Made by a program: the position numbers and the translations under genes | NCBI RefSeq assembly: GCF_021134715.1 | Contig: NC_060026.1 | Location: 372,001 to 436,000, forward strand | Direction of reading: 5' to 3' | Source: Daphnia pulex | Taxonomy: Eukaryota > Arthropoda > Branchiopoda > Diplostraca > Daphniidae | Length of the DNA stretch: 64,000 nucleotides | Notes under the pieces: generated by a model | The model's database searches: none | Told to the model about the DNA's origin: nothing | Seen by the model: the letters and a program-made list of their open reading frames with translations, nothing else | Part shown: in pieces, positions 9,484 to 55,620 of the stretch | Layout: every line of letters begins with the position of its first letter | Position numbering within the stretch: position 1 is the first letter of the stretch

Positions 9484-11100
9484 TTATTTCATGTATGTGT
9501 CAATCCACGTCCTGTATGCCGACACTCTGGTTTTTAGGCCGTTACTAAAGCAATCTGTAACAAAAAGAAACCATCAAAACCAAATCGTCATTTAATTTCA
9601 AACCAAATATTTCATTTTCAAACACTCAATACCCTTGGTGTAGCTGTTGATTCCAACAACGGTCCAGGCTCCTGGCGACGGGAGGATGACAACTGGGCCT
9701 CCCTTGTCAATCTGTGATTTTAGCCATAATATAATTTCATCACGTAGAGAACCAAGTGAAAATGAATATTGATAGAGCCAATTATATATGTTACTTTGCA
9801 TGCGTATGGACCAGTGGAGCTAGTATCGAGGCAGATAGTCGCGTCCGTCACATATTTGCCAAATGTCGAGTCACCCTTGCACTCGGTGTTGGCCATAATT
9901 GGAATTGCAGTTTTGGTTTGTTGCAGTTTTATTACGCCTGAATCTGGAATTAAACAATTATAAGACACACTGCATCACAATTAATAATTAACAATGAGTT
10001 GGTTATTTATCGTTACCTTCGGTTCCCCAACCCATAATTATGGCATTTTCTTCGACGTATTGATCGGGGTCGGAACTGGCCGGCGGCAAACAAGCGGGGC
10101 CGACAGTCTTGGAAATAGCCACGGGCGCGTCCAGTGTTAGGATGGCGATGTCATTGGCCTGACCAAAATCAAAAGGGAGTCAATTAAATGTCAAAAATAC
10201 TAATCGTTTTTTTGTTGTTGTAGCGACTTACGTAATTGAAGGCGTTGTATTTGTCGTGGAGGACAACTTTGGTGATCCTCCTCGTCATTTGGACGTCGGA
10301 TTGGTCCGATAAATACATTCCAATCAATGCGGTCACAGACGATATCTCATACAAGGACAATCTTTACGCGCCCGAGAAAAAATAGCAGGTGAAATCATTT
10401 TGTGACACTACATTTAAAAAAAAAATGAAAACATGAATTACGCTTCGAGGCACTGGGCCGCCAGTAGGACTTTGGTGTCACTAATCAATGTTCCGCTGCA
10501 AAATAATTTACCATCAGTGCTTTTTTGCAGGGCTACCTGAATTTTGAAATGATTTAAATATGGGGCAATTAAGGGCGTATCAAGGTGCAAATCTCACAAT
10601 GAAAGGCCAAGCGCCCTTTTTGGCAACGATTGCGCCATAGACTCTTCCGCTTGCCAATCCCCCTGTCTTTGGCATTGTGGCCGGTCCGCCGCCACAAGTC
10701 GCTGCCACTTGTTTGACGTCAATCGGCTCCTCTTCCAATCGGCTAAGATATCCAGACGGATACGGCCATCCGCTGGGCTGTTGCTGCTGGCGAAACATCA
10801 TTGGGTAAGGATTGAACGATGGCACCGGAATGAATCCTGGATTGGCAATTTGGCCGTACCAGTTCTTGCCTTGAAATGGGGAAGCATATCCCGAACCATC
10901 AACTGAATTTAAATATTAAAAACATCAGACTCAGCCAATTTTAGAAATGAAAGGAAATTATTTTCAATACGATCGATGATGATGGCATCGTCAGTACGGG
11001 AGACGCGCGGAAGGATGAAATAAGAGGCCTGGCAGCAGCTCAACAGACTCACGACCGCAAGTAAGAAGGCCATCGAAAAACCCTTTTGATCGCCAATCAT
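9484..11100 (-). CDS. Secreted trypsin-like serine protease homologue, catalytically dead (SPH copy 1)
   Basis: Eight exons (10971-11100, 10598-10902, 10442-10536, 10232-10361, 10017-10158, 9795-9943, 9633-9711, 9484-9554) join in frame to 366 residues. A signal peptide is followed by a Pro/Gln/Tyr-rich pro-region and a trypsin-fold domain from about residue 105. The fold is clear: CSGTLISDTKVLL, ANDIAIL, GWGTE, GGPVV and a C-terminal R.WID helix. The triad is broken: the TAAHC position reads LAAQC (His to Gln), the Asp of NDIAIL is kept, and the GDSGGP position reads IDKGGP (Ser to Lys). It cannot be a normal protease; SPHs of arthropods act as cofactors, for instance in prophenoloxidase activation, or as binding proteins, which is the inferred role. 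The start is chosen because M-x-x-Q-K-G recurs in relatives at 30637 and 45761. All introns are short and phase-consistent. Confidence 0.88.
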
Positions 11101-11234
11101 TGCACTAAATTTACGTCGAGAAACATTTTATTGGGGCCAAGTAAATTAGAGACAGAAATCTCTCAAAAGTATTAGTACTGCTATAAGTGATATTTAGCTT
11201 CTGATAACTTTATTCTTGAAATTTCAATTAGAAA

Positions 11235-11345
11235 AAAATTTATCAATTCTTTTAATTACCTTGATTGTGTAGAAGATTGTGTTGTTTCAACTTGGACGAC
11301 ACTGGTGATTCACTAGCGAGCTGGGCTTCCTTTTTATTGCCGGAG
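11235..11345 (-). promoter_or_regulatory. SPH copy 1 promoter and 5' UTR intron start
   Basis: On the reverse strand the block CAATAAAAAGGAAGCCC (TATA-like element within 11325-11340) is followed by GTGAATCAC(C/A)AGTGTCGTCCAAG and then, near 11260, a splice donor AAGGTAATTAAAAG. The same order and spacing recur upstream of the copies at 30637 and 45761, including the donor at copy 2. I read it as a core promoter, transcription start region and 5' UTR intron that were duplicated along with the genes. Confidence 0.6.
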
Positions 11346-11420
11346 TGAAGAAGCTCAAGATGCCCTGCGGAACCGCACCCTTGTTATTCATGTCTCCATA
11401 AACTGCGTTGAATTGAGCCA

Positions 11421-12150
11421 CCGCCCTTATTAGAAGTAAACGAAAAAGGTAAAAACATTAATTGTGATTTCAATCTGGTATCTTGCGATGTCACACAAAT
11501 GGTAAGGAGATGGCCCCCAGTTAGCTCTCTTTTTCATCATCGGTTATCGAACCCTGGGACTTTCCCGTGATGTTGAATTGCGACGATTTTGCTCTCGAAC
11601 TTTGCCGCGAGCGGAATGCAAATCATGTTGTTGGCCTTCTATACTCCTTTTTTTTCATAATTTTTCTCAGCTTAGTTTTGTCACGTCCCTTCAATAGCGA
11701 TAAATCAATTGATTTTTGCCTTGTAACATCGACTGATGTGACTCGAATCTCATCACCTCAGCAGTAGTAAAGAAACATCTTACCTAAAAAACCAAACAAA
11801 TATCAAATGCAAATCAAAAGTTTTTTTTTTTTTCAACGGCAGAGGGCCGTTGTAAATGAAAAAGCGTATACCGCTCTGATTTTTTAAAAGTGGCATATCT
11901 GAAAAGTTTCCTGTACGTATGACGACAAATATTGCCATTTTTGCTGTCCATTGTGTAATCAATAATTAAAGGTTTCAATCAACAACATTTTCCAGGGTCA
12001 CCCTCAGCACCAATTCACGGTGATCGTGTTTTTCGCAACTTCTCCACGTTTTCAGATTCGATGGTTTTGGTCGACGGTACTCGACATGTTTTGACAATGA
12101 GAATGCATCGAATAAATTAACAAAAAAAAACGTGCCAAGCAGGTGCCAAG
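11421..12150. other. Intergenic spacer
   Basis: AT-rich spacer upstream of the SPH gene, with poly-A and poly-T runs near 11820 and 12121. No gene recognised. Confidence 0.4.
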
Positions 12151-12274
12151 ACGAAAACGGAGTGACTTCGTGAATGGAAGTTCTGGTTTAGACATGAAAC
12201 GCAAACTAGTTTTTTCAACTATACAGAATGAAGATGGTGCGATTACAGGAGTCAATAACCCGGCGATTCAGGTA
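12150..12274 (+). other. Possible coding exon, unrecognised
   Basis: A plus-strand open segment ends at a strong donor (CAG then GTAAGA at 12275). It reads a basic stretch (PRRKR), then a Ser/Gly/Asp segment and QNEDGAITGVNNPAIQ. The composition looks like protein rather than spacer, and the basic cluster could be a nuclear localisation signal. No start codon, acceptor or following exon could be fixed, and no family is recognised. Confidence 0.3.
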
Positions 12275-12878
12275 AGAAAGTGCAACTTAATTGGGGAACT
12301 ACAGTTTGTCTATTAATTCAAATTCAAATGTGCAGGTTTCCCTTACGTGGATCGGATAGCTACGTACATGATACATCTAGATAGCTACTACATCTAGATA
12401 TCAAATTCTCGTCAACTTATTTCCATTTGGCATTTGGCAAGCGTTAATGGCTGCACGAGAAATAGCAGAACAGATTGAAATGTTATCGCCGTGTCTCGTT
12501 TCTACTCGTAGAATAGAACTGCCATATGCACAGCTGCATACTCGCTCTTTCGAAGGTAAATTAAATAATTTTTATGATTGAATAAGAGTGAGTAATGTTG
12601 TCCAAAAATCTTCGTCCTTGAAAACCACTTGGGGGAACCGGAATAGCCAAACACACACAAAGTTTGGCCAACAACTTTTTGGGTTCTTTTTCCAATTTGG
12701 GTAAAAGGTATTCTAATAGACAAAGAAGAGATTGGTCTTAGAACAACAGGTGATTATAATGCGGAAGGGAGTAGTAGAACACCGTAGAAAAAAAGTTACG
12801 ACATAAAGTTTCTAAGTAAATGCGGAAAGTCGGAAGCCGGAAGGGAATACAAAAAGAAAGAAAAGGAAAATTCCATAC
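12275..12878. other. Intergenic or intronic spacer
   Basis: No gene recognised. If the ankyrin exon at 12879-13098 belongs to a live gene, this is the beginning of its intron, but no second exon was found on the reverse strand before the SPH gene. Confidence 0.35.
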
Positions 12879-13098
12879 CGGAACTGGCTGCCCAGAGGAG
12901 AGGTTGGCGTCCGTCTCGATCGATGACGTCCACCGGCACGCCATGGTTGATGAGTTTCTTGAGAGCCGCCAGACCCGTGTACCTTTGGCTGCTGCCTGGT
13001 CCACCTCCTCCAGTTCCTCCTCCTCCCAAATGGCCCTGGCCACCACCACTTCCGCCTCCGCTGCCCAGTCCCATGGCTTTTTTGTTGTTGCCGCACAT
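12879..13098 (-). CDS. Orphan first exon of an ankyrin-repeat protein
   Basis: From ATG at 13098 the reverse strand reads MCGNNKK, a Gly-rich linker (about residues 10-36), then one ankyrin repeat (LKKLINHGVPVDVIDRDG followed by R-x-PLLWAAS), ending in phase 1 at a GTATGG donor. The N-terminal leader and the clean donor suggest a real first exon. No matching acceptor or further repeats were found downstream in the 1.5 kb before the next gene on this strand, so it is either the start of a gene with a long intron or a fragment moved here by duplication. Confidence 0.5.
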
Positions 13099-13984
13099 TT
13101 GCTCAACGTTCTCTTATTTTGTTACTTCTTTACGATCGTAACTAGATTAAAAAGAAACAAACACTGAATTGCTTTGCTAAAATGCTTTTTTGCCAGTACG
13201 TATGCAGCAATTAAGTTCGGCTGAGTACCGCCCACGGATGAACGGTCAGCATCACTACACACTACATTGAAGAAGTACCGAACAGCTGGCCCACGTCTAA
13301 TAAGTCAAGACTATAATGTCAACTTTCTATTTCATATAGTTTACCTTTTTATTTTTTTACCAGACTTTCCAGATGCCACGAGTACTGGCTCCCACGGGCA
13401 ATTCAGATAACAGGATCAACATGTCTGCCACCAATTCTCTCTCTTCCCTGCACCCTTCTCTGTCCTCGTGTACATCCGTGTGAATGTGATGGGTGTACTC
13501 ACGAGGATTCCCTGCTGCTTCAATTTCCACCTGATGTCTGCCAACGACAGGATTCACTTGGGATGGAGCACCCAGATCTGCCGTCCAATATTCACCTTTT
13601 CAAGGTAGGACGCCGTTGATATTCCTTTTCTGTAGCTACATTTCATTTGGGAGGTTGTCTCTTTCCTTTGGCCATTTTTGGGACCTTGTCAGTCAGAAAA
13701 AACAAATAGATTTTATAGTCCATCCTTGAATTCGATGGCACAATGGTTCTATAAGGAGAGGACGTTTACGAATCTACTCGAGTAAATGTTATGTATTCAC
13801 TAATTTAGAGCTGGCAAACCGACAAGTTACGTCAATCTCTTTTCAATGGAATACATCACATTTAGCAGGTATAGGAATTGATTTGAACAAACATTTTGCG
13901 CTAGAGCTAAATAGAGTGGAAAATTAGATTGTCCAAATCGAACATCAAAGATAAGTTATTCCGTTGAAATCAAGGGACCCTGTG
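13099..13984. other. Spacer with exon-like repeat copy B
   Basis: No complete gene. It contains copy B of the dispersed exon-like element; the remainder up to the truncated end of the GTPase pseudogene shows no motif. Confidence 0.45.
13430..13545 (-). repeat. Exon-like dispersed element, copy B
   Basis: This is the longest copy of the element. The reverse strand is open across 13357-13557 and carries NPREYTHHIHTDVHEDREGC. The plus strand is also open from an acceptor-like CAG at about 13363 to a GTAGGA donor at 13605, with a Cys-rich reading. The element has an internal inverted repeat (TCCTCGTG-TACA and TGTA-CTCACGAGGA). Flanking similarity with copy A extends across the donor-like site. 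Confidence 0.45.
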
Positions 13985-14780
13985 TCATGTGTCGCCAAAT
14001 CCCGGCGTGTCAATAACAGTCAGTGAGAAAGGAATGCGGAATCCCTCGCAATAGTGCAGGTCGTAGGCAGCAGTGACTCCTAGTGTTTGGCTGAGAGCCC
14101 CGCCTCTGACAACTTCGTCGACCAATACGAAGCGGAATGGATCGTCCCATTCGACACCCAGGACATAATTGCTGACCATGGGGTTGATCCACGTCGTTTT
14201 TCCCGATCCCGTGGCTCCTACCACCAAAATAGTTTTGCCTGGTCGAGTCGCAAGGGGGTCCGGTTCGCCCAATGCAAATCGTTTGATGGTTGATGGTTGT
14301 TGACGAGTGCCAGGAAAGTTTGACTTTTCTTTCAAATTTAACACGCAAGAAAGCGCAAGTTAGTCTGAGCGCTAGCCTGGTGTTGTCTTCCACTTTAGAA
14401 ACGTCTCGGGAGTGAAGGTTGAGCGCTTGAACGCCGGTCTCCAGCGGACACAACTCGTCTTTCAACTTCCTGAAAGCGTTGGCGGGAGTGGCCTGTTTTA
14501 AAACGTCGCCTTTTAACAAATCGTCTTCCAAGTCAAGTAAATTATTAGCCACTAGCAAATAGCTGTAGTCATACAGTCGATATTTTTACAAGATGTCGAC
14601 CAATTTGGGTGTCAACATTTTAACCGCTTTTTGATTACGGACGGGAATGATGTCATCTAACTCGGTCAAATTTAAGTTTTCGGTTAACTTCTTGTAATAT
14701 CTTTTGATTTCACTGGTATTGGAATTGGCCGTGGCGAAGAGCCTTTCTAGACGATCGATGTGCTCCTGCAAGTCGCTCAT
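13985..14780 (-). pseudogene. Broken, truncated copy of the AIG1/GIMAP-like GTPase
   Basis: The first 60 or so residues (14586-14780) are almost the same as those of the intact gene, then an indel introduces a stop near 14588. The frame resumes at 14558 (LLVANNLLDLED), shifts again near 14340, and the P-loop region follows (GATGSGKT, VLGVEWDDPFRF). The copy stops right after DTPGFGDT at about 13987, so everything beyond switch II is missing. The Ser/Thr-rich linker is mostly deleted. The P-loop has Ala in place of Glu (GATGSGKT against GETGSGKT), so the copy had diverged as well as decayed. Two frame breaks and a missing C-terminal half make function as a GTPase unlikely. Confidence 0.85.
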
Positions 14781-15640
14781 TTTCTATTATCTGCGTGAAA
14801 TGAAATGGATTTTTAAAACAATTCCGGGAATAGAATTTAACTTTCTATTTAAAAAAAAAACATGCTTGACTACGTTTTCAAAAATGTCGGCTTCTGACGT
14901 CAACCGAAACCGTAAGTGCATAACATGGGCTGTCAAGTATTAAAAAGCAGCAAATAGGAAAATAATAGTTCTTTCCACCCAACGGAATTCACTTAATACT
15001 ATTCACATCGCTATTTCAATTTCAGTTCGAAATCTTATCTCGGATGCCTACCGAATTTTATCAGCGTTCTTTTGTTAACGTTTGTGGCGTTATTGTTATG
15101 TTAGAAAGATGATTTCTTATTACGATAAAAGTTTAATCCTGCGCGAATTGAATTTTGTAATTTACAGCATTATTTATAGTCATTTAGACGCGTCGTAAAA
15201 GGAATAGAGTCGGGATAACTGGATAAGTATTTTCAAACATTCCACGAAAACGCCATGTTTTCTTCATTGTAAAAACAACTTAAACAGTACTTACCCCAAT
15301 TATGTTGGCCAGTTTATTACTAGTCCTATTTGTTGCGGTGTCGTGAAATTTGGAACACGATCAGCGTCGATAAAATGCCATTTGAATCTTGGCACATCTC
15401 ACTCCGCGGCCATGTATTTATATCGCCAACTCCACAACTAGGCACCGTTTTGCCACGTAGCACATTTCATGATCTTTTTTTATCTTTATCTTCCAAAGAA
15501 GCGATGACGTAGTAGGGTGTTTGCCTGTGTATCGTTTAAACGGGTTATTGTATTGAGTTGAGAAAACCATAAAACGTGAACGAAATCACTCCGGGACAGG
15601 CAAAAATGGCTCAAAACGAACGGCAGTTTTTATGGAGTTT
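14781..15640 (-). repeat. Duplicated upstream region of the GTPase pseudogene
   Basis: This matches 7603-8560 in order and orientation, with small indels, and ends abruptly at about 15640 where the similarity to 8550 (GGCAGTTTTTATGGAG) stops. It is the outer part of a same-strand segmental duplication of roughly 1.7-2.1 kb. Confidence 0.7.
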
Positions 15641-15718
15641 GTTTTTGTACATTTATATTTACTTTTAATCGCGCCAAACTAAATATATTGATTGACGCAA
15701 AATAATATTGTTAGATTA

Positions 15719-17828
15719 TTAAAGGCACACACCGCATCGTTGGCTTTCATACGACTTGATGGATCTCTTGCCAGCAGCGTGAATTTTGACATGACGGTCA
15801 AGAGAATGCTTGGCTCCGAAGCGGGCGTCACACTACGTTACAATACAAATTGAACAACATTGATCATCTATAATATTGTGACGAGAAATTGTATAACTTT
15901 GTTTGCGGTTGATCTTATATCACCTGAGGGCATTGAAACCGATTCCCTTGATTGTGGATGTGCATATGTCTCTTCAAGGCACCACTGGAACGAAAGGTTC
16001 GATTACAGTCGTCGAGACTGCAATTGTAAGGGCGCAAGTCAGAATGGACGTTATTGAGATGAGCCTGCAACTGGGTGTTGCCACTGAACGTTTTCTCGCA
16101 CCTCGGGACAGGACAGGGCAACTTATTGACCTTCTTTTTCGTTTGGCCCGTGTGACCTTTAACGTGTTCACGCATGTTGTCCTTTCGTGAAAAATGCTTG
16201 CCGCAAAACTAGAAATTATATGCAAATCGACATTTAAGATATCGAGGGAAACAAATTAATATTTGATAAGAACCTCGCAGTTAAATTGACTTTGGGGAGT
16301 TCCATCACAGCCTCGCTGCTTCATGTGGCGAGTCATGTGAAATTTGCGACTGAATCGGCTCCCGCAACTTTTGCACTCGTACGGTTGACGAACTAAATAC
16401 AAATCTGAATTGAGAAAACATTCAACTATATGAATTATTAAAAAAAAGGTGAAGTACTAGCTAATTACTATTGTGAGAAAGGAGATGCTTGACTAGTGCT
16501 CTTTCGCTACGCAGAATAACTGGGCAATGAGGGCAGCATTTGCGATCTCGTCCCCTAACAACAACGGAATGACTCGTAATATTAGGCAGACCATCTTGAA
16601 CAATTGGGATTGGCAAAATTGTCGGCACCAAAGTCGGCATAGCAGTTGCCGAAACGGTAGGATTTGCCGAGATACTTTGGCTGCTGTAACACAATCAGTA
16701 AGATTAAATACAATTATTTCTTTTTCTATTCTAATAAGCAATTAATACTATACCTTCGAATGACGCTGTTGTTTTCTTCAGACAACGAACGACCTCCAGC
16801 GAATAAATTATTCGTGCAGCGGAAGTTAATTGGTTCACATCGAATGAAATCAGCCGCTGCCTGCGGTGAAGCTCTTGCGATCTTATCTGATAAGTAAAAT
16901 TACATACATGTATAACGCGATTTATATTAAAAAACAAAATTATTTTAAAAGAAAAACTTACCGTCAGTCGACAGGTTCAATGGCCCTGAATCCACATGGT
17001 AATACGGATAATGAAATGTAGATTCCGACTCTATTGTTCTGTCTGTATGGTTAGCGTTATTTTTGTTATCAAGTTTTGCCCGAACAATATGGCAGAATTC
17101 ACGTTTAAGCCCAGCACCGGAGGAAGAACAATAACGGCCACATTCAGGAAATATGAAGGGGTAATTCTGAGTTCGGTGTATTACACTAGCTTGTCGAGGT
17201 ATCGGTCGAATCGGGAGTTGGTGCTGCTGCTGATGATGATGAGTTTCGTTGCTGCTGGAGACAGACGCGAATGGTTGCTGATTTTGTTGAGATAAAAACA
17301 AATTGCTTGAAAATGTAGGAGGTATTGGAGCAGCTTGGATGACATCAGGAGAGGTTGATTCTTGTGAACGTTGGTGAGAATAGCTGGTGGTGTCGGGAAA
17401 GTGGGGCCAGGCAGTAGCCGAGGTTTTTTCGTTCAAATCCGCCAAGGCATAATGGCTGCTGTTTCCGAGCATGTTGCGATTGCCTACGGACCCCGTACTG
17501 TGGACCACACCGACGCCGTTTGTGACTTTACTGATGTTACTGCTATGAGTGCTTTCAATGTCATAAGGCCGGTACAAGTTTTGATGATTATTGCTCATGG
17601 CACTCTTGTGCATTGACGAGTAGTAAGAAGTAAAAGCAAACTCTTCAAGTGCTCCAATAACCCACTGCAAATCACAACGACGAAAACGGTAAAAAGTTAA
17701 AAACAGTAAAAATAAAACAAGCCAAAATGTGAAATGAAGAAGATGAAGGGAAAAATACGTCACACACGTATCGGTTAAAATGCTCGTTATTGTTCGTGCC
17801 AAAATGTGGCTGCTGTGCGTGAGCGAAG
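15719..17828 (-). CDS. C2H2 zinc-finger transcription factor, six fingers (5' end uncertain)
   Basis: Seven exons join in frame: 17768-17828, 16962-17664, 16754-16886, 16469-16683, 16274-16392, 15924-16208 and 15719-15832. The N-terminal two thirds are disordered, rich in Ser, Asn, Gln and His. The C-terminal third holds six C2H2 fingers: CPHC...H...H, YECKSC, FCGKHFSRKDNM, CPVPRCEKTF, CSLDDCNRTF and a last finger split by an intron (FQCPQ, then CDARFGAKHSLDRHVKIH). Fingers of this kind bind DNA in the nucleus. An in-frame ATG at 17863 precedes the first listed exon, but its reading is hydrophobic, and a good acceptor (TTGCAG) after it suggests the true start is further upstream. No close named family is recognised. 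Confidence 0.75.
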
Positions 17829-17863
17829 CTGCAAGCAACACAGCAAAGCAAATAAGCCATCAT

Positions 17864-18205: not shown

Positions 18206-18228
18206 TGTTTGGTATCAATACATATTGA

Positions 18229-20790: not shown

Positions 20791-21215
20791 GCGACTTACG
20801 TAGTTGAAGGCATTATATTTCTCGTGAAGGACAAACTTTGGTGAGCCTCCTTGACATTTGGACGTCAGATTGGTCGGCTGAATACTTCCCAATCAATGCG
20901 GTCACAGTGTTTATCTCATTCAAAGACATTCTTTACTCGCACGAGAAAAAAGCAGGTGAAATTATTTTGTTACGAACAATTTTAAATGAATAAATGAAAA
21001 ATCTTTTACTTTTCCAGGCACTGAGCCGCCAGTCCGCCAGCTAGAACTTTAGTGTCACTGTTAATCAAAGTTATGCTGCAAAATAAGAAATTTGCAGTAC
21101 TTTTTTTTTTTCAGGAATACCTAAATGATTTAATTATTTGGATATGGCGCTATTAACGCGGATCAAGTTGTAAATCAAATCGGCTCCTCTTTTTCATCTT
21201 CGTATTCAAACAACC
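20791..21215 (-). pseudogene. SPH pseudogene fragment (copy 3)
   Basis: The reverse strand matches exons 2 (end), 3 and 4 of the intact SPH at 9484-11100, including intron positions. The region near 20800-20935 equals the exon with the VTALIG, SDVQMT and KYNAFNY segments, and 21018-21085 equals the exon with SDTKVL and the AAQC region, here disrupted by an inserted repeat of CCGCCAGT. Frames are broken and other exons are missing. Confidence 0.75.
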
Positions 21216-30340: not shown

Positions 30341-30440
30341 TCCTCAATCCCGCAATAAAAAGGAAGCCCAGCTCTTAAGTGAATCACAAGTGTCGTCCAA
30401 GTTGAAACAACACCACCTATGCAAAAATCAAGGTAATTAA
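30341..30440 (+). promoter_or_regulatory. SPH copy 2 promoter block
   Basis: CCCGCAATAAAAAGGAAGCCC at about 30349-30369, then GTGAATCACAAGTGTCGTCC and, near 30430, the donor-like AAGGTAATTAAAAG. It is nearly identical to the blocks in front of SPH copies 1 and 4, although this gene body is broken. Confidence 0.6.
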
Positions 30441-30636: not shown

Positions 30637-32005
30637 TGGACGATCAAAAGGGTTTTTCCATGGTCTTCTTATTTGCGGTCTCTGCTGAGCTGCTGCCAGA
30701 CCTCTAATTTCATCCTTCCGCGCGTCTCCCGTACTGACGATGCCATCATCATCGATCGTATTGAAAATAATTTCCTTTCATTTCTAAAATTGGCTGAATC
30801 TGATGCATTTTACATTTGAATTCAGTTGATGGCTCGGGATATGATGTCCCATTTCAAAGCAAAAATTGGCACGGCCAAATTGCCAATCCTGGATTCATTC
30901 CGGTGCCATCGTTCAATCCTTACCCAATGATGTTTCGCCAGCAGCAACTGCCTAGTGGATGGTCGTATCCGTTCGCCTATCCTAGTTCCCTTAATCCTGC
31001 AGGTGTCCCATCCAATAAGCAGTTTGATGGCGAATATGAAGAAGAAGAGGCGATCGACGTTAAACAAGCGATAGCGACGTGCAGCACCGGACTGACTGTC
31101 ATGCCCACCGCAAGGGGATTGATAAGCGAAAGGCTCGTTGGCGCAGCCAATGCCAAAAATGGTAGTTGGTCTTTCATGGTGAGTTTATTTGAATTTGCAA
31201 CTTGAATGGTTTTTTGTGGGTTACTGATTATCGTCACTAGAACTAATCGGACCATTTGAACATTTAGGTAGCCCTGAAAAAAGCTGATGGTTCCATATTT
31301 TGCAGCTTTTATTGATTAGTGACACTAAAGTCCTTATAGCGGCCCAGTGGAAAAGTATAAGGATTGTTCTACATTTATTCAAAGTTCCTTGTAGTAAATT
31401 ATTTGTCTTACTTTTTCTCGTGTACGTCAAGGATGTCTTTGATCGAGATCAATGGTGTGACCGCATTGAATGGAGTGTAATCAACGGACCAGTCAGACGT
31501 CCAGATGTCAAGGAGGATTAGCAAATTTGTCCTTCACGAGAAATACAACGCCTTCAACTACGTAAGTCGCTGAATAAGAATCAAAAGGATGCATGCATTT
31601 GATTGACTCTATTTTGATTGCCATTAGGCCAATGATATCGCCATCCTCACACCTACATATCCCGTAGTTCTTTCTAAAACTGTCTTCCCCGCTTGTTTGC
31701 CGCTGCTCAATAATGACCCCGACTAATACGTCGACACGACTGCCGTGATTTTTGGGATGGGGAGCAGGTGGTTACAAGAGAACTTGAACTGAATTATTGT
31801 TTATAAAAGAAATGGTTTTTTCAATGTTCAGCTCCAGGCGCAACCGCACTCGCTAAACTGCAACAAGCCTTAGTTGGGTTAAAATTCGGTTTAGCTGACT
31901 GATATTAAATTATACAAGCCATGCTATTTAATGTATGAGCATAGTATGAGCATGTATGTATGTATAGATAGACATGAGCATAGACATTAAAAAGTTCTGA
32001 ATAAA
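30637..32005 (+). pseudogene. SPH pseudogene (copy 2), nearly full gene with breaks
   Basis: It is collinear with SPH copy 1. Exon 1 (ATG at 30637) loses about 5 bp and runs into a stop after MDDQKGFSMVFLFAV. Exon 2 (about 30825-31178) is still open, reads like copy 1 through FNPYPMMFRQQQ and ends in a GTGAGT donor. Exon 3 (31268 on) has a one-base deletion after TTTTGCAG. Exon 4 ends in the conserved AACTAC-GTAAGT donor at about 31560. Exon 5 (from about 31629) has a CAA to TAA stop in the DPDQY segment. Only the beginning of exon 6 remains, and exons 7-8 are deleted. The 3' end and AATAAA at 32000 match copy 4. The position equivalent to the catalytic His reads AAQW. Confidence 0.85.
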
Positions 32006-37789: not shown

Positions 37790-38133
37790 GCCAACGACAT
37801 CGCCACCGTCGTACTGGACTTTCTCCCGTGGTTGATTTCCAGGACTGTTGCACCTACTGGTCTGCCAATGCAGACCCCGACCGACACGTGATGCCATTAT
37901 GTTGGGATGGGGAATTATATAGTTGCCATGGAAGAATGAAAATACCAAATCATTATTGATTTAACCTACTTTCCATTATTGAATTCCAGATCCACTTCCC
38001 CCTTCAAAGTTTTGCAACAAGCCAAAGTTGCGATTTTGTCAACCACTGACTACAGGTCGGACGACACCTTTGGCAAATATGTGACGGCCGCAACCACCTT
38101 TTTTATAATAATAACAAATTCTCCTGCACAGTA
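37790..38133 (+). pseudogene. SPH pseudogene fragment (copy 5)
   Basis: Two exons survive. From 37790 the ANDIA segment after an AG acceptor equals SPH exon 5 (NADPDR...GWG), with frameshifts. From 37990 the exon 6 equivalent reads VLQQAKVAI onward to FGKYVTAATT and ends at SCTV-like sequence with a GTAAGT donor. No exons with the triad His or Ser positions remain. Confidence 0.75.
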
Positions 38134-38572
38134 AGTAAAGTCTGTCTTCGCCATCATATGATCTGAAATTTAAATAAGCCGCTATAAAAATGATTGGCTG
38201 ACGTCAGCGCCCCAGTCGTCATCTTCCCGACACCAGCCAACTGAGCCAAGCAACCAGCTTGGCTACTAAAGCGTCTGTAATTGTAAACAATTTGGTAAAA
38301 ATCAAATAATCAGCGAGAACAGAAAAAACAAATAATTTGAACTTGATATTTATAGATTCTAATTCAATTAAACGTCGCCCGGAAATATAAAATAAAATTT
38401 AAATTGATATAAATTAAAAATGAAATAAAATTATTTTAAAATCAGAAAAGGAACAGAAAAAAGTTTAAATATGAACACTAAATAGCAAGGAGAGGGAGCA
38501 CATCCGCCGCTGTGTGTGTGTACTACTTGTTTTTACCAAATATTCTATAATTGATATAACAATTTTAACAAT
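38134..38572. other. Spacer, no gene recognised
   Basis: Very AT-rich, with a short GT run near 38511. Nothing supported. Confidence 0.45.
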
Positions 38573-45418: not shown

Positions 45419-45499
45419 TTAGGTATTCTTTTTCATTTTCAAAAGGCGTTGGCTCAATCCAATGGAGTTTAACAAGTACGAATGATATGGGCGGTGCTT

Positions 45500-45600
45500 C
45501 TTCCCGGCGTCTTCAATCCCGCAATAAAAAGGAAGGCCAGCTCGACAGTGAATCACAAGTGTCGTCCAAGTGCACCTGCAACAACCATGGTAATATCGAT
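45500..45600 (+). promoter_or_regulatory. SPH copy 4 promoter block
   Basis: CCCGCAATAAAAAGGAAGGCC at about 45518-45538, then GTGAATCACAAGTGTCGTCC. A donor-like ATGGTAATATC near 45589 sits where copies 1 and 2 have AAGGTAATTAAAAG. Together with those copies it defines a conserved core promoter plus 5' UTR intron. Confidence 0.6.
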
Positions 45601-45760: not shown

Positions 45761-47434
45761 ATGGGCTACCAAAAAGGGAAAATCATCCTCTTCTTTGCGA
45801 CGGTGACTTTCCTGAGCTGCTGCAACCCTGCCGCTAGTTCCGTCCTTCCGCGTGTCACTCGAACAGATGACGCCATCATCGTTGATTGTAAATTACAAAT
45901 GATTTCTTTCTTTACAAATATTTGCTAAAAAATGTGACGAGTTGTTTAGTTGCTGATTCTCCCATTCAAAGCAAGAACTACAACGGAGAAACAATCATTC
46001 AGCTGCCAGGGTTCAATCCTTACGCAATCATGCAACAGAAGCCGCAGAAGGTTTTCTACGAAGGATGGCCTTTTTTCTTCGGATATCCTACTCCTACTGG
46101 CCCATCTACTAGGCAGTTTGAAGAAGTGCAACTACGGCAGCAGGTAGGAGTTGCCCCGGCCCCAACTACAACTAAAGCTCCAACTCCGGCTCCAACTCCA
46201 GCTCCAACTCCGGCCCCAACTCCGGCAACGTGCGGCCGTGGGCCAGCCAAATTTCCTGGAACACGGTCATTGATTAGCGGAAGGGTCACCACGGGCGCGG
46301 ACGTAACCAAAGCCAAAAATAATGCTTGGCCTTTCATGGCAAGTTTATTCATTCCTGTTAACTACTAAATAAATACTAAAATACTTTTTAATTAATTCGA
46401 TTACAGGTAACCCTTAAAAATAGTGCAGGTACATTGTTTTGTAGCGGTGCTTTGATTAGTGACACTAAAATCATCACAGCGGCTCAATGCTTTGAAAAGT
46501 AATAAGATTTTAAAATAATCACTCACCGTTTCATTTCAGCAAAGCAATTCTCTTTTTCTTGCATGCTTAAAGAATGTCTGCATTTGAAATGCAAGGTGTG
46601 ACCGTATTGATTGGCATGACGAGCCTAACAGACGTTCAGATGACGAGGAGAACGACTAAAATTATCCTTAACGGCAAATTTAATGCGTTTACCTACGTAA
46701 GTTGAGCCAAAAAACAATGGATTATCATTTCTTAATTTTACTTTTGAGATTAGGCCAATGATGTGGCCATCGTAACAATGGACTCGCCTGTGATTATATC
46801 CAATACTGTTCAACCTGTTTGTTTGGCAGCGGCTAATCCCAATCCCAACCCCGACCCCGACCAATATGCCGGCCAGGATGCCATCGTCTTGGGATGGGGA
46901 ACGGCAGGTATAACAAATAATCACCAACTGTTTGTCACTGAATGAACTAAGACAATTTAGCGTTTCTTTTTCCTTACTTTAATTTCCAGACATAACAAAA
47001 CCTAGTGCTACTTTGATGCAAGGTAAAGTTGGAATTGTGGCCAACTCTGAATGCAGGGTTGAGCCGGCGTTTGGCAAATATGTTTCCGACTCAACCATCT
47101 GTGTCGCTTCTACGACCGCCTTCAGCTGCGCAGTAAGAAATTAATTCTCTGTGAACCTTTTTAAAACTTTTCAACAAGACAATGAAATAAAAATGTTACG
47201 TAATTTTAGGGTGACGTCGGCGGTCCAGTAGTTATTCTTTCGGCGCCAGGGACTTGGACCTTGGTTGGAATCAACAGCTACACCAAGGGTGAGTATCTAA
47301 ATGTATACAAGGCATTTGGTTACAATCAATTAACGAGCCGTTTTTGTTGTTTAATGACAGCTGATTGCAGTGCTACTGGCCTTAAAACTGCTATTTCGGC
47401 TTTCAGGGCCTGGATTGATCTGTATAAGAATTAA
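45761..47434 (+). CDS. Secreted trypsin-like serine protease homologue, catalytically dead (SPH copy 4)
   Basis: Eight exons (45761-45887, 45950-46338, 46407-46498, 46573-46696, 46754-46907, 46990-47132, 47210-47288, 47361-47434) give 393 residues with every junction in phase. A signal peptide is followed by a Tyr/Pro/Gln pro-region, a PTPAPTP-type linker built from a 12-bp minisatellite (46184-46232), and the protease fold from about residue 130. Triad positions: AAQC (His to Gln), NDVAI (Asp kept) and GDVGGP (Ser to Val). It is therefore inactive, like copy 1 but with a different Ser replacement. Exon 2 ends in a GC-AG intron (ATG then GCAAGT) where copies 1 and 2 use GTGAG. A second small repeat (NPNPNPDPDP) sits in exon 5. 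AATAAA is at 47643. Role inferred as a non-enzymatic extracellular cofactor or binding protein. Confidence 0.88.
46184..46232 (+). repeat. In-frame 12-bp minisatellite in SPH copy 4
   Basis: Units of GCTCCAACTCCG and close variants are repeated about four times and encode the Pro/Thr/Ala linker. In-frame repeats like this readily change length between alleles. Confidence 0.75.
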
Positions 47435-47649
47435 AATCAAAAGGATAACGACGACAACCAACAAGAAAACAAAATTTAGAACTAACTCTTCTTTTTTGGT
47501 TATACTGCTGGTTAGATTTTGGTTAGATTGGCGTTTGGTTCTTATATTTGTTTAAAATTCAGTTTCGGCAGACTAATATTGATTATTACAAGCCATGGTA
47601 ATAAATGCACTATTGCATACCATTAAATTAAACCAGTTTCTGAATAAAC

Positions 47650-48129
47650 ATGAGACAAAAGTATTTACCAGCTCACTCGTCTGCTGAATTGATTCGACAA
47701 TTTTATAAGAGTCCAGTACCCCCACCATAATCGGAAAGGCCAAGATAACAAGAATTATTAAAATTATTAATGGAAAGAGCAGTGGTGCTAGATCACGTAA
47801 TCATAACCAGTTAATGTCTTCCAAAATACCTAGACAGAAATGCGACGTGCCAAAAATAACTTCAAAATTTACTGTGAATTGAACAAACAGGCCAGAATTC
47901 TAAATTTACAACATCTAAAAAAAAAAAAAAAAACCCAAGGGCAGAACAAATTTGCCATTCCAGAACTGAACATTAAACGTGGGTGATTTAAAAATATATA
48001 TATATGCTAAACAACCTACAGATGTACAGAAAGATAAATCAACCATCTCTCTACTAGAACCGGCGGGATATGATCTGACATTTTAAATAAGGATGTTAAG
48101 GATCCGAAATTATTTCTGGAAAATCATCG
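47650..48129. other. Spacer, no gene recognised
   Basis: AT-rich with an A18 run near 47917 and a short AT repeat near 47993. Nothing supported. Confidence 0.5.
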
Positions 48130-48924
48130 CACAAGCGCAAACGCGGGAAACACATAATTACGGATTTCCAACAGCAATCGTGAAAACAAACTCACAACAC
48201 TATTCCGTTTCCGTCAAAACAATAACCTATACGGTTTCTTCCCCCCAATTTTCAATTAAGGTAAAACACAGCTGCTAAACTCTTGTACAATAAAAAACAC
48301 AATTGAGCAACTGATGGATTCGACTGGGTCAATGGCGAAATGTGTTTAATCCCGCTGCAAGAGGAAACCGATTTAACCACGTCGCAATATCATCCGAATA
48401 ATTGCGGTTAACTGGCACAGATACCGACGAACGTGCGGTTGGAAAGGATAGAAAGCGTCATGGAAATACTAAACAGGACGGCGAAAACAACAAGCACGTA
48501 TCTCCAATAGAATCAATGTACTATTACCATGGTAACAACTTTTCCAACATCCGTCACGTATTCCGCATTCCCCCCCTCCCTTCGTGATTTCCCTTACGAG
48601 CGCACTCGATGGTTAACTTCCTTCCGAAACCCCAAAAGTTTAATGTTTCGCGGTGAACAATAAACGGAAATTTAAACGTGCAGTAGGCTACTGCTGAAAG
48701 ACCTGGCGGATAAAGGATCAACCACATTTCGGGAAGGTAAACAATGTTTGGGCGACCTTCATCAGTAGAACGTTATAAATGAATTTTTTAATGACGTAGA
48801 GCGACGCGCCTTGCGTCACTAAATCAACGGAAATATTAAACGGGGAATCCGCTAACAGAGAAGAATGATTTGCAAAAACCTCAAACAGATGTGATATGTG
48901 CTGCGGATATTGACATCCTTGAAA

Positions 48925-48975
48925 CTTTCAATTCTCATATAAAACCGATCGATTCGAGAACTGAATCCATCACAA
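48925..48975 (+). promoter_or_regulatory. TATA-box promoter of IL-17-like gene 2
   Basis: TATAAA at 48938-48943, in the same block as in gene 1 (GATTCGAGAACTGAATCC follows in both). Confidence 0.6.
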
Positions 48976-49046
48976 CCACTTTGAACTCGGCTCATAGTTA
49001 CTCCTCTGAATTACTCCCAGTCCTTCTTTCAATCATTACCTTGACG

Positions 49047-49499
49047 ATGAAAACAATCTTGCTTTTGGTTACCTTTTGTGTCTCCGCAGCTCATTGCCTG
49101 GTCCTACCAAGCACTGGCGCAATTGGTTCCGGTCAACTTGGACTGCCTGAAGAAGAAGACGACGTGGTCCAGTATCGCATGGTTTCCATCGTGGACGAAC
49201 TGCAGGAACTCGGTCGACATTCCCAAACTGTTTGTCCTTTCAAAGTGGAAAACAAAACCGTAGAAAACGATCATCCACTGGGAAATGTTGTGGTCGCCAT
49301 CGACGAAATCGTTTGCTCAGGAACCTGCAAAAATGAAAATTGCGGGACAGGACGCAGTTGCAAACAGCTGATGACGACTCTACAGGTTTCCATTAGGGAT
49401 CCGGCGACCGGTCTACCTGAAAATATCATCTCCACCAGCGTCGCAGCTGGATGTAGCTGCACACCACAAGATACTGGAGCTCTGGGCGAGGACATTTAA
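49047..49499 (+). CDS. IL-17-like secreted cystine-knot cytokine, gene 2
   Basis: A single exon of 150 residues, almost identical to gene 1. Signal peptide MKTILLLVTFCVSAAHC. The mature Cys pattern is the same (C, C-x3-C-x3-C, SC, terminal GCSCTP). One residue is lost in the CKNENC loop relative to gene 1, which removes the N-C-S sequon, and the tail ends at LGEDI where gene 1 continues with four more residues. Upstream codons are open but contain only a Met in an implausible 5' extension, so the Met at 49047 is taken. Same TATA block as gene 1. AATAAA is at 49652-49657. Confidence 0.65.
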   Translation: MKTILLLVTFCVSAAHCLVLPSTGAIGSGQLGLPEEEDDVVQYRMVSIVDELQELGRHSQTVCPFKVENKTVENDHPLGNVVVAIDEIVCSGTCKNENCGTGRSCKQLMTTLQVSIRDPATGLPENIISTSVAAGCSCTPQDTGALGEDI

Positions 49500-50050
49500 G
49501 AGCGTGATGAGGTGATTCGTGGCTCAGATTTTGTTGAAATGTGTGTTCTGCTTTAAGTTGACATTACACTCAAAGTATTATTAGCCATTCCCTGTTAAAA
49601 ACTTTTAAAATGGCTTGTTATATTTGAAAAGTAACACACACCGAACCAGCAAATAAATTATGTACCACTGAATATCCAGTTGATTTGATTGATTTCAAGA
49701 CTGCTAAACTGAGAGTAGAGTTTATCCAGTATACAGCAGTCTCTCACCAAGCCTGTTGTAATTTTCAAAAGTAGTATAGATCATCAACGTTATTTGCTAA
49801 AAAAGAGAATAGTTGTCATTGAAATCCTAAACATACCCTTGCTTGATGGTTCCTTAGGGAGCAACAAAAATACTGAATAGACAACAGCATTAAACAGTTA
49901 TTCCTTCTGAAAATGTTACATATTTCAAACAGTTTTGATTGACACCAATACTGGAAAACCAAACTTTTCACGGTTGTGTAACATATCTTTCCTGTCATCT
50001 GTACCATATGAATTAGTTAAAAAAATTTTGCCAATTGTGCAAATAATGTG

Positions 50051-52100
50051 AGGAAAATTATTAGTGTACTCACCAGTCAGGAGACGCCTCTTTCCCACCA
50101 TTTTGGGAAAGGAAAAACAATCAACCGAATAACTTGTGTGCACAAACGTAAATTGCGTACTGGTGTTTATCATTGGCACATGCATTGGCACGACAACGTT
50201 TGGCAGTTTTGAATCAGACGACCATTTCAGAGGAGAAGGCAGGCAGGTAAGAAAATCCATCATGGCCGCCATCCATAGCAGAATCCCCTGTATCATTGTG
50301 CTCTACGTGTGTAAGGCCTTGCCTCGTGTCGGGTGCGGTCGTGTGTGTGTTTCTTCTGTCGAGTGTGCGCATGTTCAGAAATCTAAAATTGAAATTTCCA
50401 ATTCCGATTTCAAACGTCCTCCACGTTACTGGATTGTTATTCTTGACGAAAGTTTTGTTTTTAAATCTCTGGTTCGAAGAATCACAGGCCTTTCCTTTTC
50501 AGACGTGGAGGTAGGGTAAGGAAATGAATCCATAATGGCCGCCTTCCACTGCGGAAATCCTCCTAAATGGCGGGAATAGTTTTTGGGGCGTTGCCACTAC
50601 CTTATTATTAGTCTACAAGTCAGACTAATTTAATTCTAATAAAAACACCGGGAATGTATACGTTAAGTGAGTGGAAAAATTTCCAACTACTGTCAGAATA
50701 AACTAGCTGCATCTGCTCTTGTCCAATGAAAAGCAGAGTTTGACAGAATGCCATGCAGACTGCAACTCTGTTTAAACTAGGAAAGTCACAGCAGTTTTTA
50801 GCGACCTTTCATCCATTCCTTTCAAGATCCACGTGATGTCTACGACGTCAAACTCCTCGCGGTAAAATAACGAAAATTCGTTTGTTAATTTTTTCATAGC
50901 ATTCTTTTTGTCCAGACCGGTCCAGAGATTTTTTATTGTAAATTTGCAAGTCATTAAATTTGGTTTTTGAAAAAACACGAATGCACAGTGGTGACGACAA
51001 CTTTTCAGAGAAAGTAGAAACACAACCAACTAGAATTTATTCGTGCAAGCTACAAATAGGTAAAATGTTAAACTTGCGATGCGTTTTACATAACGTGACT
51101 TGTAAGTTGTAATAACACACAAGCAAGGCAAGTCGTTCACCAGCAAGGTGGAATGATTGGCTGATTAAAATAAAAACAGTTCGAAACAAACGGACTAAAA
51201 TGTGTAAATAATCAATTTTGTGTCAAACGAGTTACTCCCTAAGACTTGGATCTTATTTTTGTTGCAAAGCATGTTGTTACATTATGTGTTGATTGTTGTG
51301 ATTGGAATAAAATGCAGGGTATATTATTTTTGAGAAAAATTAATTTAGTAGTAATAATTGTTTAGTAAAAAGGGTATACAAGACGAAGAATTGCAGGTTT
51401 AAATAAAGCACGTGAATGGGAAATGATTCATTTATTTTGTTGTTGTTGTTTTTCAATTTCTCGCGCGGTTGTTGGCGTTGCCACCGCCACTCGAGCTGAT
51501 ATGCAAATAGCCAAATAATGATTTTAAAAATCATATTTCATTCTACTGTCTTTTAATAATTTACATTATTTTTAAATTTCTTTATTAAGTTTTAATAAAT
51601 GAAGTAGCCTAGTCGATTCAAATATTCTAAACTATATCTATTACGCCGGTAGCCCGGTAGGGGAAACCTCTTCGATGTCAAAGGGTGACGACGACATTTG
51701 TATTCAGTCGAACTTTCACCACCAGTCCTAGAAGATGCACTGCAAGTTGTGGTTTGAAGAAAACATAATTTCAAGGTTACTGTATATTTCATTCCGTTTT
51801 ATTGTTGGATAATGATTCTGTGACGGATTTGAGTGTTCTGATAGCTAAACTAATTGTATCATGTGTAGTCGGAGTCATATTCGTTGCTGATCTGCAACCA
51901 CATGCTGGCCATGCGTCCTAAACGTGGTGAGTAGCTAGCCGGGTTTCCTGCATTTAGTTTATCACGATGATAATTCGAGTATCGTTCGTATGAATTTGAC
52001 AGGGTCAATTTATTGATTCTAACTTTTATCTACCACTGATTTTTAAACAACCAATTTCAAATTTTTCCGCTGTTCTAGACAAAGCTAATTAATCTGTCTA
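50051..52100. other. Spacer, no gene recognised
   Basis: AT-rich. The frames at 50136-50519 and 50296-50514 overlap on the same strand and look like chance. Nothing else supported. Confidence 0.4.
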
Positions 52101-52109
52101 TTTCTTAGA

Positions 52110-54840
52110 TGATTCCAGCATGGGTTATGACTGTGGGACTAGTTTCGGTCTTTAGTTCAGGCAAGTTTACTTTCATTCCGTATAGCTATGCACAAATGTG
52201 ATGAAATAACGATTCCACTCTGAGGTGCAATGATGTATTACTCAATTCATCCTTACCTACATTCTCTGAAGCATTCTTCAATTTTAAAATATCTTGCTGT
52301 CCATTCTTATACTTTATTTATTTCATAGGTTGTACGTCTCGACAATGTGTGTACTATGGAAAAATGGCTTGAAAGGTGTGTATTGCTCTCTTTCGAATTC
52401 CTTTCTGTTTTATGATGATTTGTTATCCCTGTCATACTAAACCGTGGTGATAGTTAAACAATGGTAACTAAAAATTCTGAGAACATTGAAAGTTTAACTG
52501 TTAATTTATTTTTCTTGAATTTTGTGGAATTTTAAAAATTGTTATTTGTCCTCAGGGCTCATGCAGTTGGAAGGCCCGCGTTTCTCTTGTCTGCAGCCTG
52601 TCCCGTAGGTAATATTAATGTCTCGTAATAGGAAATTTTGTTACGAATGATTATTTTTTTTTACCGCCCCAGTCTGAAGGACAGTGTTGATTGGTTTATC
52701 ATCAATGACATTTTATATGATGGATATTACTTTTTAAATCTATTTGAAGGTCTGAACTTAGTTTTTTTTTACAGGATTTCCGATATTTTGATGGTTTCCA
52801 TATTCATCATATACTGTCCGGTAATTTTAAAATTAGTTACATATCTAGTTTTTATAGCTGTAATTTATGATAGCCAAGTACGATGCATCCGTTATACGCT
52901 TTTAAATAATTCTGTTTTATTTCAGGTTGGTTATTACCCTGAATGTCACTTTTTTCCTCACGTGATGGATGTGGACATTTTTGATGGTATGTCCATGAAT
53001 ATCGAATATGTAGCAGAATTATTTAGAGCTCTGATGATCACAAGCATATGCCTGATTAACCGCAAGGGGTTGATGTTAATAAGGATACTGAGCTCTTTTG
53101 TTGCATTTATTATTTGTTTTCGGCAACTTGCCATCCGTTTCTAAAGCTAATGTTTTTGCGTCTTAGGTGCTGGTGTGCAGTTTTCACGTTCCCTGTTGGA
53201 TGTTTTCCTATGGTAATTATGAGCATTCGTCATTTAAATTTTATCCCGATCGCCACGCCTCCTTCTTAATCGATGGGAAGGGAGGTGCCAAAATTACGAA
53301 CGGGGAAATTAATGGTCACGTAGGAAGTAACTGAGATCGACCTGGTCTACAGGTTGTGCCTTAAACGGAGATTACATTTGACTTCAGTTTCGACATTTCG
53401 TTTTTCTGTTTTACTCAAAATATTTTTGTTTACAGATTCCTGCCAAGCTGTAGATTCCTCCGTTACTGAACTGTTTGCGTCAATCGGGTATTACATCTTT
53501 CTCTTCACATTATTTTTACCACTTGGTGTTTCAAATGATTTTTCATCTTTCGGGTCTGAATGTTTTTTGGATGACACCTTATTATTTGCTGATGAAACAT
53601 TTGGTTGAACTTTTCGTCTCTACTTATAAAATTGTTTAACGCCTTGCTTCTTTCTACAGGTGTACTGTGGTGGGGTTTCCTTTTTCTTGTGTCGGTGTCT
53701 TCTAACAGGTAATTGAACTTTCTAGTATTAAGTCTAAAGTTTAGTGTAGTGATGAGTTGCTTATTGGTCCGTGTTTATGATTCAATGATTTTAAATAATT
53801 CAGTAAGCTCTGAGAAATTATAATGTTAAACGTGAAATTGTTATCGGTCGAGTAGTAACACTATTTTGGTTTCAGGTGTTTTATCCGCTTGACCCGTTGA
53901 TGGAAGTTTAGCTGCAGTCTGTTGATCGTGATGTGAGTTTTGTTTAGGCTTCATGTTTTGTGGGTTTTATGATGAAATTCTAACATTTAGAGCATTGGGT
54001 TCTGAAGTTTAGTGATTGTTGTTATTTCTGAACGATTTTCGTTGTGTTGGTATTTCATAGTTTGGTTGGAGTTTTTACAGTTTTTTTTTTTTCAATTGCG
54101 TTAGGTATCGGATTGTTACTCCTTGGATTACTTTCTTTGCCCATTGTGACTTGCCTTTTGTCTGAACGAGTGAGGCAGTTATGATTGAAAAAAATGAAAT
54201 GCCATTCGGATGAAAACAAGATCGGTCTATACAAATGTGGTCCAACTCATATTCAGTATAAATTATTCTTTTTAACTGATTTAACATGTTCTGTAATAAA
54301 ATTTGCTCGAAATTTGCAGGTGGTGGTTAAATGGTTTCGTTTGACGGCTATGACAGACACCGATAGGAGGTTTGAATTTGTGTTGTAATTTCGTGCTGAA
54401 ATTGTCTTTTGTCTTCAGGCGTTGTATTTGACATATACAACAAGTTAATCATGTTACATTTCCCTGTTCACGTTTGTACACACCCTGAAGTAGGAACTAG
54501 GAAATGTGTAATTTACTTTTCGAAACGGAACGTAACTTGTCATTTATGCCGTAATTGAAAATATGATTTCGATGTTACGGACGATATATTCATGTTTCCC
54601 GCTTTTTGAAAATAAATACGACTTCACATTTTTAGCAATTCAAGTAATCCTTTGGGGTTTCAGCTGAAAGTTTCAGTATCAGATTATCTTATGCCGTGAT
54701 TATTACAATTTATTCTCATTTTTCAATCATGCTAAATCGCTCATGTTTTATTGATTGTTCAGATTATGTGCAGGTGTCGAGCGTTGAGGCGATCGGATGA
54801 AGATGAGCGAATAGAAATGGAGCGGACAGTAAGAACAAAA
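52110..54840 (+). other. Series of short splice-bordered segments, unresolved
   Basis: Several short plus-strand pieces sit between AG and GT or GC sites: 52110-52160 (MIPAWVMTVGLVSVFSSG, signal-like, then GCAAGT), 52330-52375 (CTSRQCVYYG then a stop), about 52557-52600, 53166-53210, 53440 on, 53662-53700, 53877 on, and 54773-54829 (RCRALRRSDEDERIEMER before GTAAGA). They hint at an old multi-exon secreted or membrane gene, but stops interrupt most joins. The 168-codon frame at 52638-53144 is AT-driven and probably chance. Confidence 0.25.
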
Positions 54841-55029
54841 GTATGAGCAACATTGAAATTAAAGTGATTGAATAAGCTTATAGATAAGTAAGTTAATGCG
54901 TGTCTATTGTTCTAGCTACTAAACAATCCGTTAAATCTTATTATCTGACTTAAAACAGGTTTGAGAAAGCATAAAAGCATGGAGTGAAAAATGCGACCAA
55001 CTTTCGATTCCAGCCTACCAGTAATTGAA

Positions 55030-55620
55030 CGTGGCAGTGAATCAGAGAATCGATGTCAAAAAGCGTGCTTGTGGCTTTTAATGGTAAATTAATTAAGTCA
55101 AAACTTGTACGTATCGCGTTGGTTATTGATCATCATCTTACAAATGGCTTTATGTTTTCAAAACCTGTAAATTTAGGTAGTCCTTAAAATGCAGTGTGGA
55201 TGGTTTCTTGTTTTGCCGAGGAGCTTTGATTTGTGACTCCAACGTCCTGTTGGCGGTTCATTGCATGGCAAAGTATTTTACAATTGCATACGTTGTTCCT
55301 TTTTAATTTCGTTGTAGTTAATCTTTAATCATCTTCTTTTATGCTCAGAGTGTCTCTGTTTGAGATGTCTGGTGTGACCATATTTATTGGGATGACGAGC
55401 TTAACAGACGTCCAAATGACGAGGAGAGTCAGCAAATACAGATTTCACAGCAAACAACAGTGTTGAGAACAGTGGTTATTTATTTTTGGTGGGAACTACA
55501 ATTTAATCTTCTGATTGATTCTCATTTGAATTTGTTTGCCAACGACATCGCCATCCCAACAATGGCTGCATTTGTCCCCAGTACTGCTACACCATTTCTT
55601 CATTTGACATGGTGAGATGA
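55030..55620 (+). pseudogene. SPH pseudogene fragment (copy 6), catalytic His retained
   Basis: The order follows SPH exons 2 to 5. Near 55045-55080 the end of exon 2 is recognisable. The exon at 55177-55272 reads DGFLFCRGALICDSNVLLAVHC after a one-base shift. The exon from about 55350 reads RVSLFEMSGVTIFIGMTSLT and ends in a stop. A piece from about 55540 keeps NDIAI. Unlike every other copy in the window, the triad position reads AVHC, with the ancestral His. Later exons are missing. Confidence 0.75.

Follow-up and report, generated by a model that had tools for sequence, protein, structure and literature searches.

An apparently single-origin family of intact serine protease homologues in Daphnia pulex that shows signs of continued selection

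Serine protease homologue genes in the window

The window is a stretch of 64,000 nucleotides of the Daphnia pulex genome (C10:372001-436000; the genome comprises 133.19 Mb in 13 contigs). It holds two intact genes, A and B, and remnants of all four broken relatives (20.8, 30.6, 37.8 and 55.0 kb) that the original prediction had placed there. The features are listed by position in the window, with triad residues in chymotrypsin numbering.

9484..11100, minus strand: gene A, intact serine protease homologue of 366 aa (spliced alignment and Pfam Trypsin); eight exons, 11100-10971, 10902-10598, 10536-10442, 10361-10232, 10158-10017, 9943-9795, 9711-9633 and 9554-9484 (with stop)
9703..9705, minus strand: codon 195 of gene A, AAG, Lys replacing Ser
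10453..10455, minus strand: codon 57 of gene A, CAG, Gln replacing His; motif AAQC
11277..11340, minus strand: promoter block of the family type for gene A, its start lying 240 bp from the ATG; the GT donor that follows probably belongs to an intron in the 5′ UTR
20800..21120, minus strand: decayed copy with two exons left, a frameshift and a stop; Gln at 57
30352..30416, plus strand: promoter block of the family type, retained ahead of the decayed copy at 30.6 kb
30642..31770, plus strand: decayed sister of gene A in which exons 1-5 can be read, with three frameshifts and two stops; Gln57
37790..38241, plus strand: decayed copy in which exons 5-7 remain, with frameshifts; position 195 is Val
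45521..45585, plus strand: promoter block of the family type for gene B, its start likewise 240 bp from the ATG; a GT donor follows
45761..47434, plus strand: gene B, intact serine protease homologue of 393 aa (spliced alignment, Pfam Trypsin, chymotrypsin match); eight exons, 45761-45887, 45950-46338, 46407-46498, 46573-46696, 46754-46907, 46990-47132, 47210-47288 and 47361-47434
46485..46487, plus strand: codon 57 of gene B, CAA, Gln replacing His; motif AAQC
47216..47218, plus strand: codon 195 of gene B, GTC, Val replacing Ser
55181..55454, plus strand: decayed copy reduced to two exons; residue 57 is His (CAT), within a degenerate AVHC; its residue-195 exon was not found

Spliced alignment gave reading frames with no stops and no frameshifts for A and B, and the same intron phases (1,0,2,0,1,0,1) in both. 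The Pfam Trypsin match is near full-length, covering positions 6-220 of 220 in A (E 1.5e-39) and 5-220 of 220 in B (E 1.7e-38). The claim that both genes keep every splice phase and the trypsin fold was thus borne out. Gene B also aligned with chymotrypsin (E 2.7e-27) through the active-site segment. Intron 2 of gene B (46339-46406) is of the GC-AG type; the remaining introns of both genes are GT-AG. GC-AG introns also occur in the family gene models at C10:111, 685, 688 and 702 kb, and some such introns of family models, lying in linker regions, may be aligner artefacts.

The prodomain of A and B is about 90-110 residues long and has no Pfam match. A Pfam search up to E = 1 found no clip domain in either protein, Trypsin and DUF1986 being the sole matches. 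The N-terminus, judged by eye, is signal-like.

Triad states were read from the family alignment, and those of B also from the alignment with chymotrypsin. Gln57 in both proteins, Asp102 in both, and Lys195 in A or Val195 in B all hold as originally described; residue 193 of A is Ile, not Gly. Judged from their sequences, A and B are serine protease homologues: they are homologous to the full trypsin domain and come from intact genes in which one or more triad residues have been replaced.

The family in the genome

The catalytic parts of A and B, together with one prodomain, served as queries against the genome, and spliced models were then built from matching stretches. A set of six copies, as first described, turned out to be far too small: the same genome holds at least 24 intact paralogues including A and B, of which 23 lie on C10. 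Besides A and B, the matches listed contained 21 intact members on C10, ten at 93-146 kb, one each at 184 and 573 kb, five at 678-702 kb, and one each at 824, 832, 1404 and 12966 kb. One intact member lies elsewhere, on C8 at 5838 kb. Additional broken copies were found on C3, C11, C12 and at C10:294 kb.

Residue counts were based on the catalytic domain only; the short extra first exons of some models (e.g. 117, 122, 184 and 694 kb) are probably aligner artefacts. Models with stops or frameshifts (C10:294 kb, C11, C12, C3, C10:12971 kb and C10:12979 kb) were left out of triad counts and tree; the broken models at 12971 and 12979 kb show AAHC and GDSGGP. C10:12942 kb was also left out of both, its model being incomplete, with His57, Asn at 102 and residue 195 not modelled.

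His57 and Ser195 are both replaced in 24 of the 24 intact genes, and none has an intact triad. Residue 57 is Gln in 17, Ser in six and Thr in one; residue 102 is Asp throughout; residue 195 is Val in 11, Ile in ten, and Leu, Met and Lys in one each, the Lys being that of gene A. The eight catalytic relatives in the set have His, Asp and Ser, with an AGY codon for Ser195 in 8/8. The family codon at this position is ATY or GTY in 20/24; a single step separates ATY from AGY, and likewise GTY from ATY.

Two further observations concern the surroundings of the family. C10:184 kb and C10:1404 kb, separated by 1.2 Mb, are copies in inverted orientation with 91% identity over 3.9 kb; each carries an intact family gene, and dS between the two genes is 0.025. 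In four catalytic relatives, three at C10:12.95-12.99 Mb and one at C10:694 kb, IVGG is present but residue 15 is Gly or Ala rather than Arg or Lys; activating them may therefore take a protease that is not trypsin-like.

Phylogeny and the loss of catalysis

The tree was built from 33 proteins and 242 columns after columns 57 and 195 had been taken out. All 24 family members form one clade (support 100/100, stem 0.66). Among the 33 proteins its sister is the catalytic gene at C10:122.7 kb (support 98/97); the nearest catalytic gene in the tree thus lies in the same genome. Triad-bearing relatives scattered among the set would have spoken against the original prediction, and among these 33 proteins those with both His57 and Ser195 all fall outside the clade. 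The whole tree requires at least four changes at residue 57 and at least ten at residue 195. One of the changes at residue 57 is unrelated to the family loss: it belongs to C10:12962 kb, a gene that lies within a cluster of catalytic relatives and was inactivated separately (Ser57 and Asn195, with Asp102 retained).

The original prediction proposed two different Ser losses, in A and in B, after a common loss of His. The differing residues at 195, combined with the same Gln57, are what such independent inactivations would leave. However, A groups with three Val195 genes (144, 184 and 1404 kb; support 87/75), and its wider seven-gene group has five Val, one Ile and A itself; the group partners of B are a Val gene and two Ile genes (93/92), both forks being below the star level of the tree tool. 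The decayed copy at 37.8 kb likewise carries Val, and a Ser195 ancestor would require many parallel changes from Ser to a hydrophobic residue. On the tree and the residue table we rejected two independent Ser losses, which we regard as very unlikely. As residue 195 is Val or Ile in 21/24, and with the tree, a single ancestral loss is favoured: the simplest reading of the sequences is that Ser195 was lost once before the split of A and B, was followed by interchange among hydrophobic residues, and became Lys late, in A. Most likely, catalysis was lost a single time rather than independently in A and B.

The His57 and Ser195 losses both map to the same stem branch, which gives no support to the claim that His went first. 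No intermediate with one of the two losses was present among the genes modelled. Nor is residue 195 free to change, as had been supposed: it is Val, Ile, Leu or Met in 23/24, and A alone departs.

Substrate pocket and zymogen frame

Position 189 is Phe in 14 and Tyr in six of the 24 family genes, and Asp in 7/8 catalytic genes. Position 216 is Thr in 16/24 and Gly in 1/24, and Gly in 7/8 catalytic genes. After Cys220, all 24 have a shorter segment than the catalytic genes do. Gly193 is retained in 10/24. With these residues the S1 pocket looks plugged.

Asp194, Ser214 and eight cysteines are kept in 24/24, and residue 15 is basic in all (22 Arg, two Lys). Residue 16 is Ile or Val in 21/24, with one Leu, one Lys (685 kb) and one Asn (688 kb). 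As Ile, Val or Leu is lost in these last two genes, the N-terminal insertion switch cannot hold for all members. The pattern of conservation suggests that fold, disulphides and cleavage site matter and that ordinary substrate binding does not.

Selection on the intact copies

dN/dS was estimated with our own maximum-likelihood code under a one-ratio codon model, which gave 0.49 for the 24 family genes (IQ-TREE also gave 0.49) and 0.30 for the eight catalytic genes. On the terminal branch of B dN/dS was 0.31, below 1 (LRT 26.2) and lower than the rest (LRT 4.4). The terminal branch of A had 0.60, marginally below 1 (LRT 4.1) and not different from the rest (LRT 0.8). When the decayed sister at 30.6 kb was included (238 codons, seven sequences), A had 0.46, again marginal (LRT vs 1 = 4.8), and the sister 0.92 (LRT vs 1 = 0.07), part of whose branch may predate decay. 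Values near 1 on the intact copies, which would have counted against the predicted selection on a family without a triad, were thus not what we obtained: dN/dS is below 1 for B and, marginally, for A. The dS between A and B is 0.92; dN/dS of seven younger pairs ranged from 0.26 to 0.58.

Site models favoured a class with dN/dS 1.7-2.0. The comparison of M8 with M8a gave 2dlnL of 39.6 for the 218 ungapped codons and 15.7 for a strict set of 145 codons away from gaps; two halves of the family, each with its own tree, gave 19.9 and 15.8, and the catalytic control gave 5.5. All 40 null simulations stayed below 15.7 (the largest value was 11.0, followed by 3.9; slightly negative values were optimiser noise). 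Thirteen ungapped sites had a posterior above 0.9: 17, 39, 62, 72, 73, 153, 154, 163, 166, 172, 192, 223 and one past 238. Nine of these (39, 62, 72, 73, 153, 154, 172, 192 and 223) we take to lie on loops round the cleft. Site models thus give a signal of diversifying selection in the family, in a test that gene conversion and misalignment in paralogue data can inflate.

A conserved block upstream of the family genes

The promoter block of both A and B starts GCAATAAAAAGG. Between A and B 47/51 of its positions are identical, against a synonymous divergence of 0.92; beyond about 10 bp on either side identity falls to 0-6 of 10 in an ungapped comparison. More of the upstream flank is common to A, the genes at 832 and 824 kb and the decayed copy. 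A GT splice donor follows the block in 12/13 copies compared, which suggests a 5′ UTR exon.

Matches to a 69-base consensus number 21 across the genome and lie without exception on C10: 15 precede intact family genes, five precede decayed copies, and one is at 682.5 kb, where only a remnant lies, on the other strand and about 1.4 kb away. This list is incomplete, as a looser scan adds blocks before the genes at 144 and 702 kb and a decayed copy on C12. Allowing up to three mismatches, a 21-base core gave 33 matches (19 on C10, 14 elsewhere) against 18 for the reversed control; the seven matches with 0 or 1 mismatch are all on C10. Within 900 bp upstream, 22/24 intact genes outscored the best of 100 shuffles, those at 184 and 1404 kb only slightly; in the same scan the block was not found before the genes at 130 and 134 kb. 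It preceded 0/9 non-family genes, of which only those at 694 and 122 kb had the full 900 bp, both with uncertain first exons. The block is indirect evidence for transcription and common control.

Four block copies at C10:293.7, 308.0, 322.4 and 339.5 kb have equal match scores and N-terminal gene fragments nearby. Spaced 14-17 kb apart, they look like a tandem duplication of a decayed copy.

Discussion

We propose, with a probability of about 0.7, that A and B are secreted, cleavable, non-enzymatic binding proteins and belong to a pseudo-zymogen clade of at least 24 members with a single origin. Since the cutting machinery was lost and the genes are nevertheless apparently kept by selection, their function is probably binding rather than cutting. 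To the sequences, phylogeny, dN/dS below 1 and conserved promoter block described above, the proposal adds secretion, cleavage, a fold switch and binding, which we infer from the conservation pattern and from what is generally known of zymogen chemistry. A trypsin-like ancestor would have exchanged His57 for Gln and Ser195 for Ile or Val on one stem branch. Filling in of the pocket by Phe or Tyr189, usually Thr216 and the shortened 220 loop would have left a protein that neither cuts nor holds the usual side chain. The zymogen frame would have been retained, with a signal-like start, a prodomain (in A and B), the Cys1-Cys122 pair, basic residue 15 and Asp194. A trypsin-like protease would cleave after Arg15, the prodomain would remain tethered, and the cleaved domain would adopt the mature shape, with changeable loops around the closed cleft binding a partner. 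The role might be that of a cofactor or a decoy in an extracellular protease cascade. The cofactor idea comes from the insect homologues in the accessible text of PMC3764210, and the decoy or inhibitor idea from the mite SMIPP-S in that of PMC5956821.

A specific form of this proposal, possible but doubtful, is an immune cofactor that, by analogy with clip-domain homologues, helps a protease activate prophenoloxidase or a complement-like protein. Such homologues are documented cofactors in insects, and Anopheles SPCLIP1 regulates TEP1 deposition and melanisation (PMC3764210, in part); the basic residue 15 and the tethering cysteines present in 24/24 would suit this role. However, A and B have no Pfam clip domain, and the part of the D. 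pulex immune survey available to us (PMC2685406) contains no word starting with "clip" or "masquerade". More speculatively, the family may be a lineage-specific recognition repertoire, in which at least 24 pseudo-zymogens, mostly with one promoter type, would use diversifying rim loops on a closed-site scaffold for binding microbial, dietary or self protease targets.

Two rival readings were considered. Inactive copies secreted in the gut might soak up cyanobacterial protease inhibitors from the diet and so spare the real trypsins. Daphnia digestive proteases do meet such inhibitors, duplicated proteases are discussed as an adaptation in the portion of PMC2873468 that we could use, and the copy number is large; but a sponge should keep the S1 pocket, and with Phe or Tyr189 in 20/24, Gly216 in one and Gly193 in ten we rejected this reading on the pocket residues as quite improbable. 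The family might instead be decaying under relaxed constraint, A and B being copies that as yet have no stop. The mean dN/dS above that of the catalytic relatives, the many decayed copies and the marginal result for A agree with decay. Against it stand 24 intact genes including splits as old as that of A and B, the low value for B, the value of 0.46 for A next to 0.92 for its sister pseudogene, the invariant cysteines, Asp102 and Asp194, and the conserved promoter block. We consider relics unlikely, and rejected them on dN/dS of A and B compared with the decayed sister.

Binding proteins with a closed site, as we propose, can be set beside three known systems. Clip-domain homologues such as SPCLIP1 and CLIPA8 share with the Daphnia family a chymotrypsin-like domain without a working triad. 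According to the available text of PMC3764210, SPCLIP1 is clustered among 12 further clip or protease genes, and the present family is also clustered; CLIPA8-type proteins are cleaved, and the present family keeps a basic residue 15; all three triad residues are replaced in SPCLIP1, whereas Asp102 is kept in 24/24 here. Clip-domain homologues carry a clip domain; A and B have a prodomain of their own instead. The hydrophobic residue 195 and mostly aromatic residue 189 also set the present family apart.

SMIPP-S, in the accessible part of PMC5956821, is a one-species set of 32 copies with triad mutations beside a catalytic relative. Both it and the present family are thus large one-species inactive sets beside a catalytic relative. 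SMIPP-S come from a parasite and are relatives of the group 3 mite allergens, and some of them inhibit the complement of the host; the present set belongs to a free-living crustacean, and A and B differ by a long prodomain, in a comparison made with SMIPP-S by description. An S1 site that is blocked or altered is a known feature of the expanded SMIPP-S set.

In D. pulex itself, the TRY and CHY proteases have the same S1 fold as the present family and are likewise expanded. The proteome paper counts more than 200 serine-peptidase loci, and the five TRY/CHY detected there keep the triad and the usual S1 residues, unlike the present clade (PMC2678069, from the text available). A search by title or start of abstract, mostly outside the subscription literature, found no described Daphnia family of this kind. 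The published inactive protease families that we found belong to insect immune cascades and to a parasitic mite. The large, old and apparently single-origin Daphnia set provides a system in which to ask why dead enzymes are kept, and Daphnia permits both knock-outs and the use of natural variation for asking why they persist.
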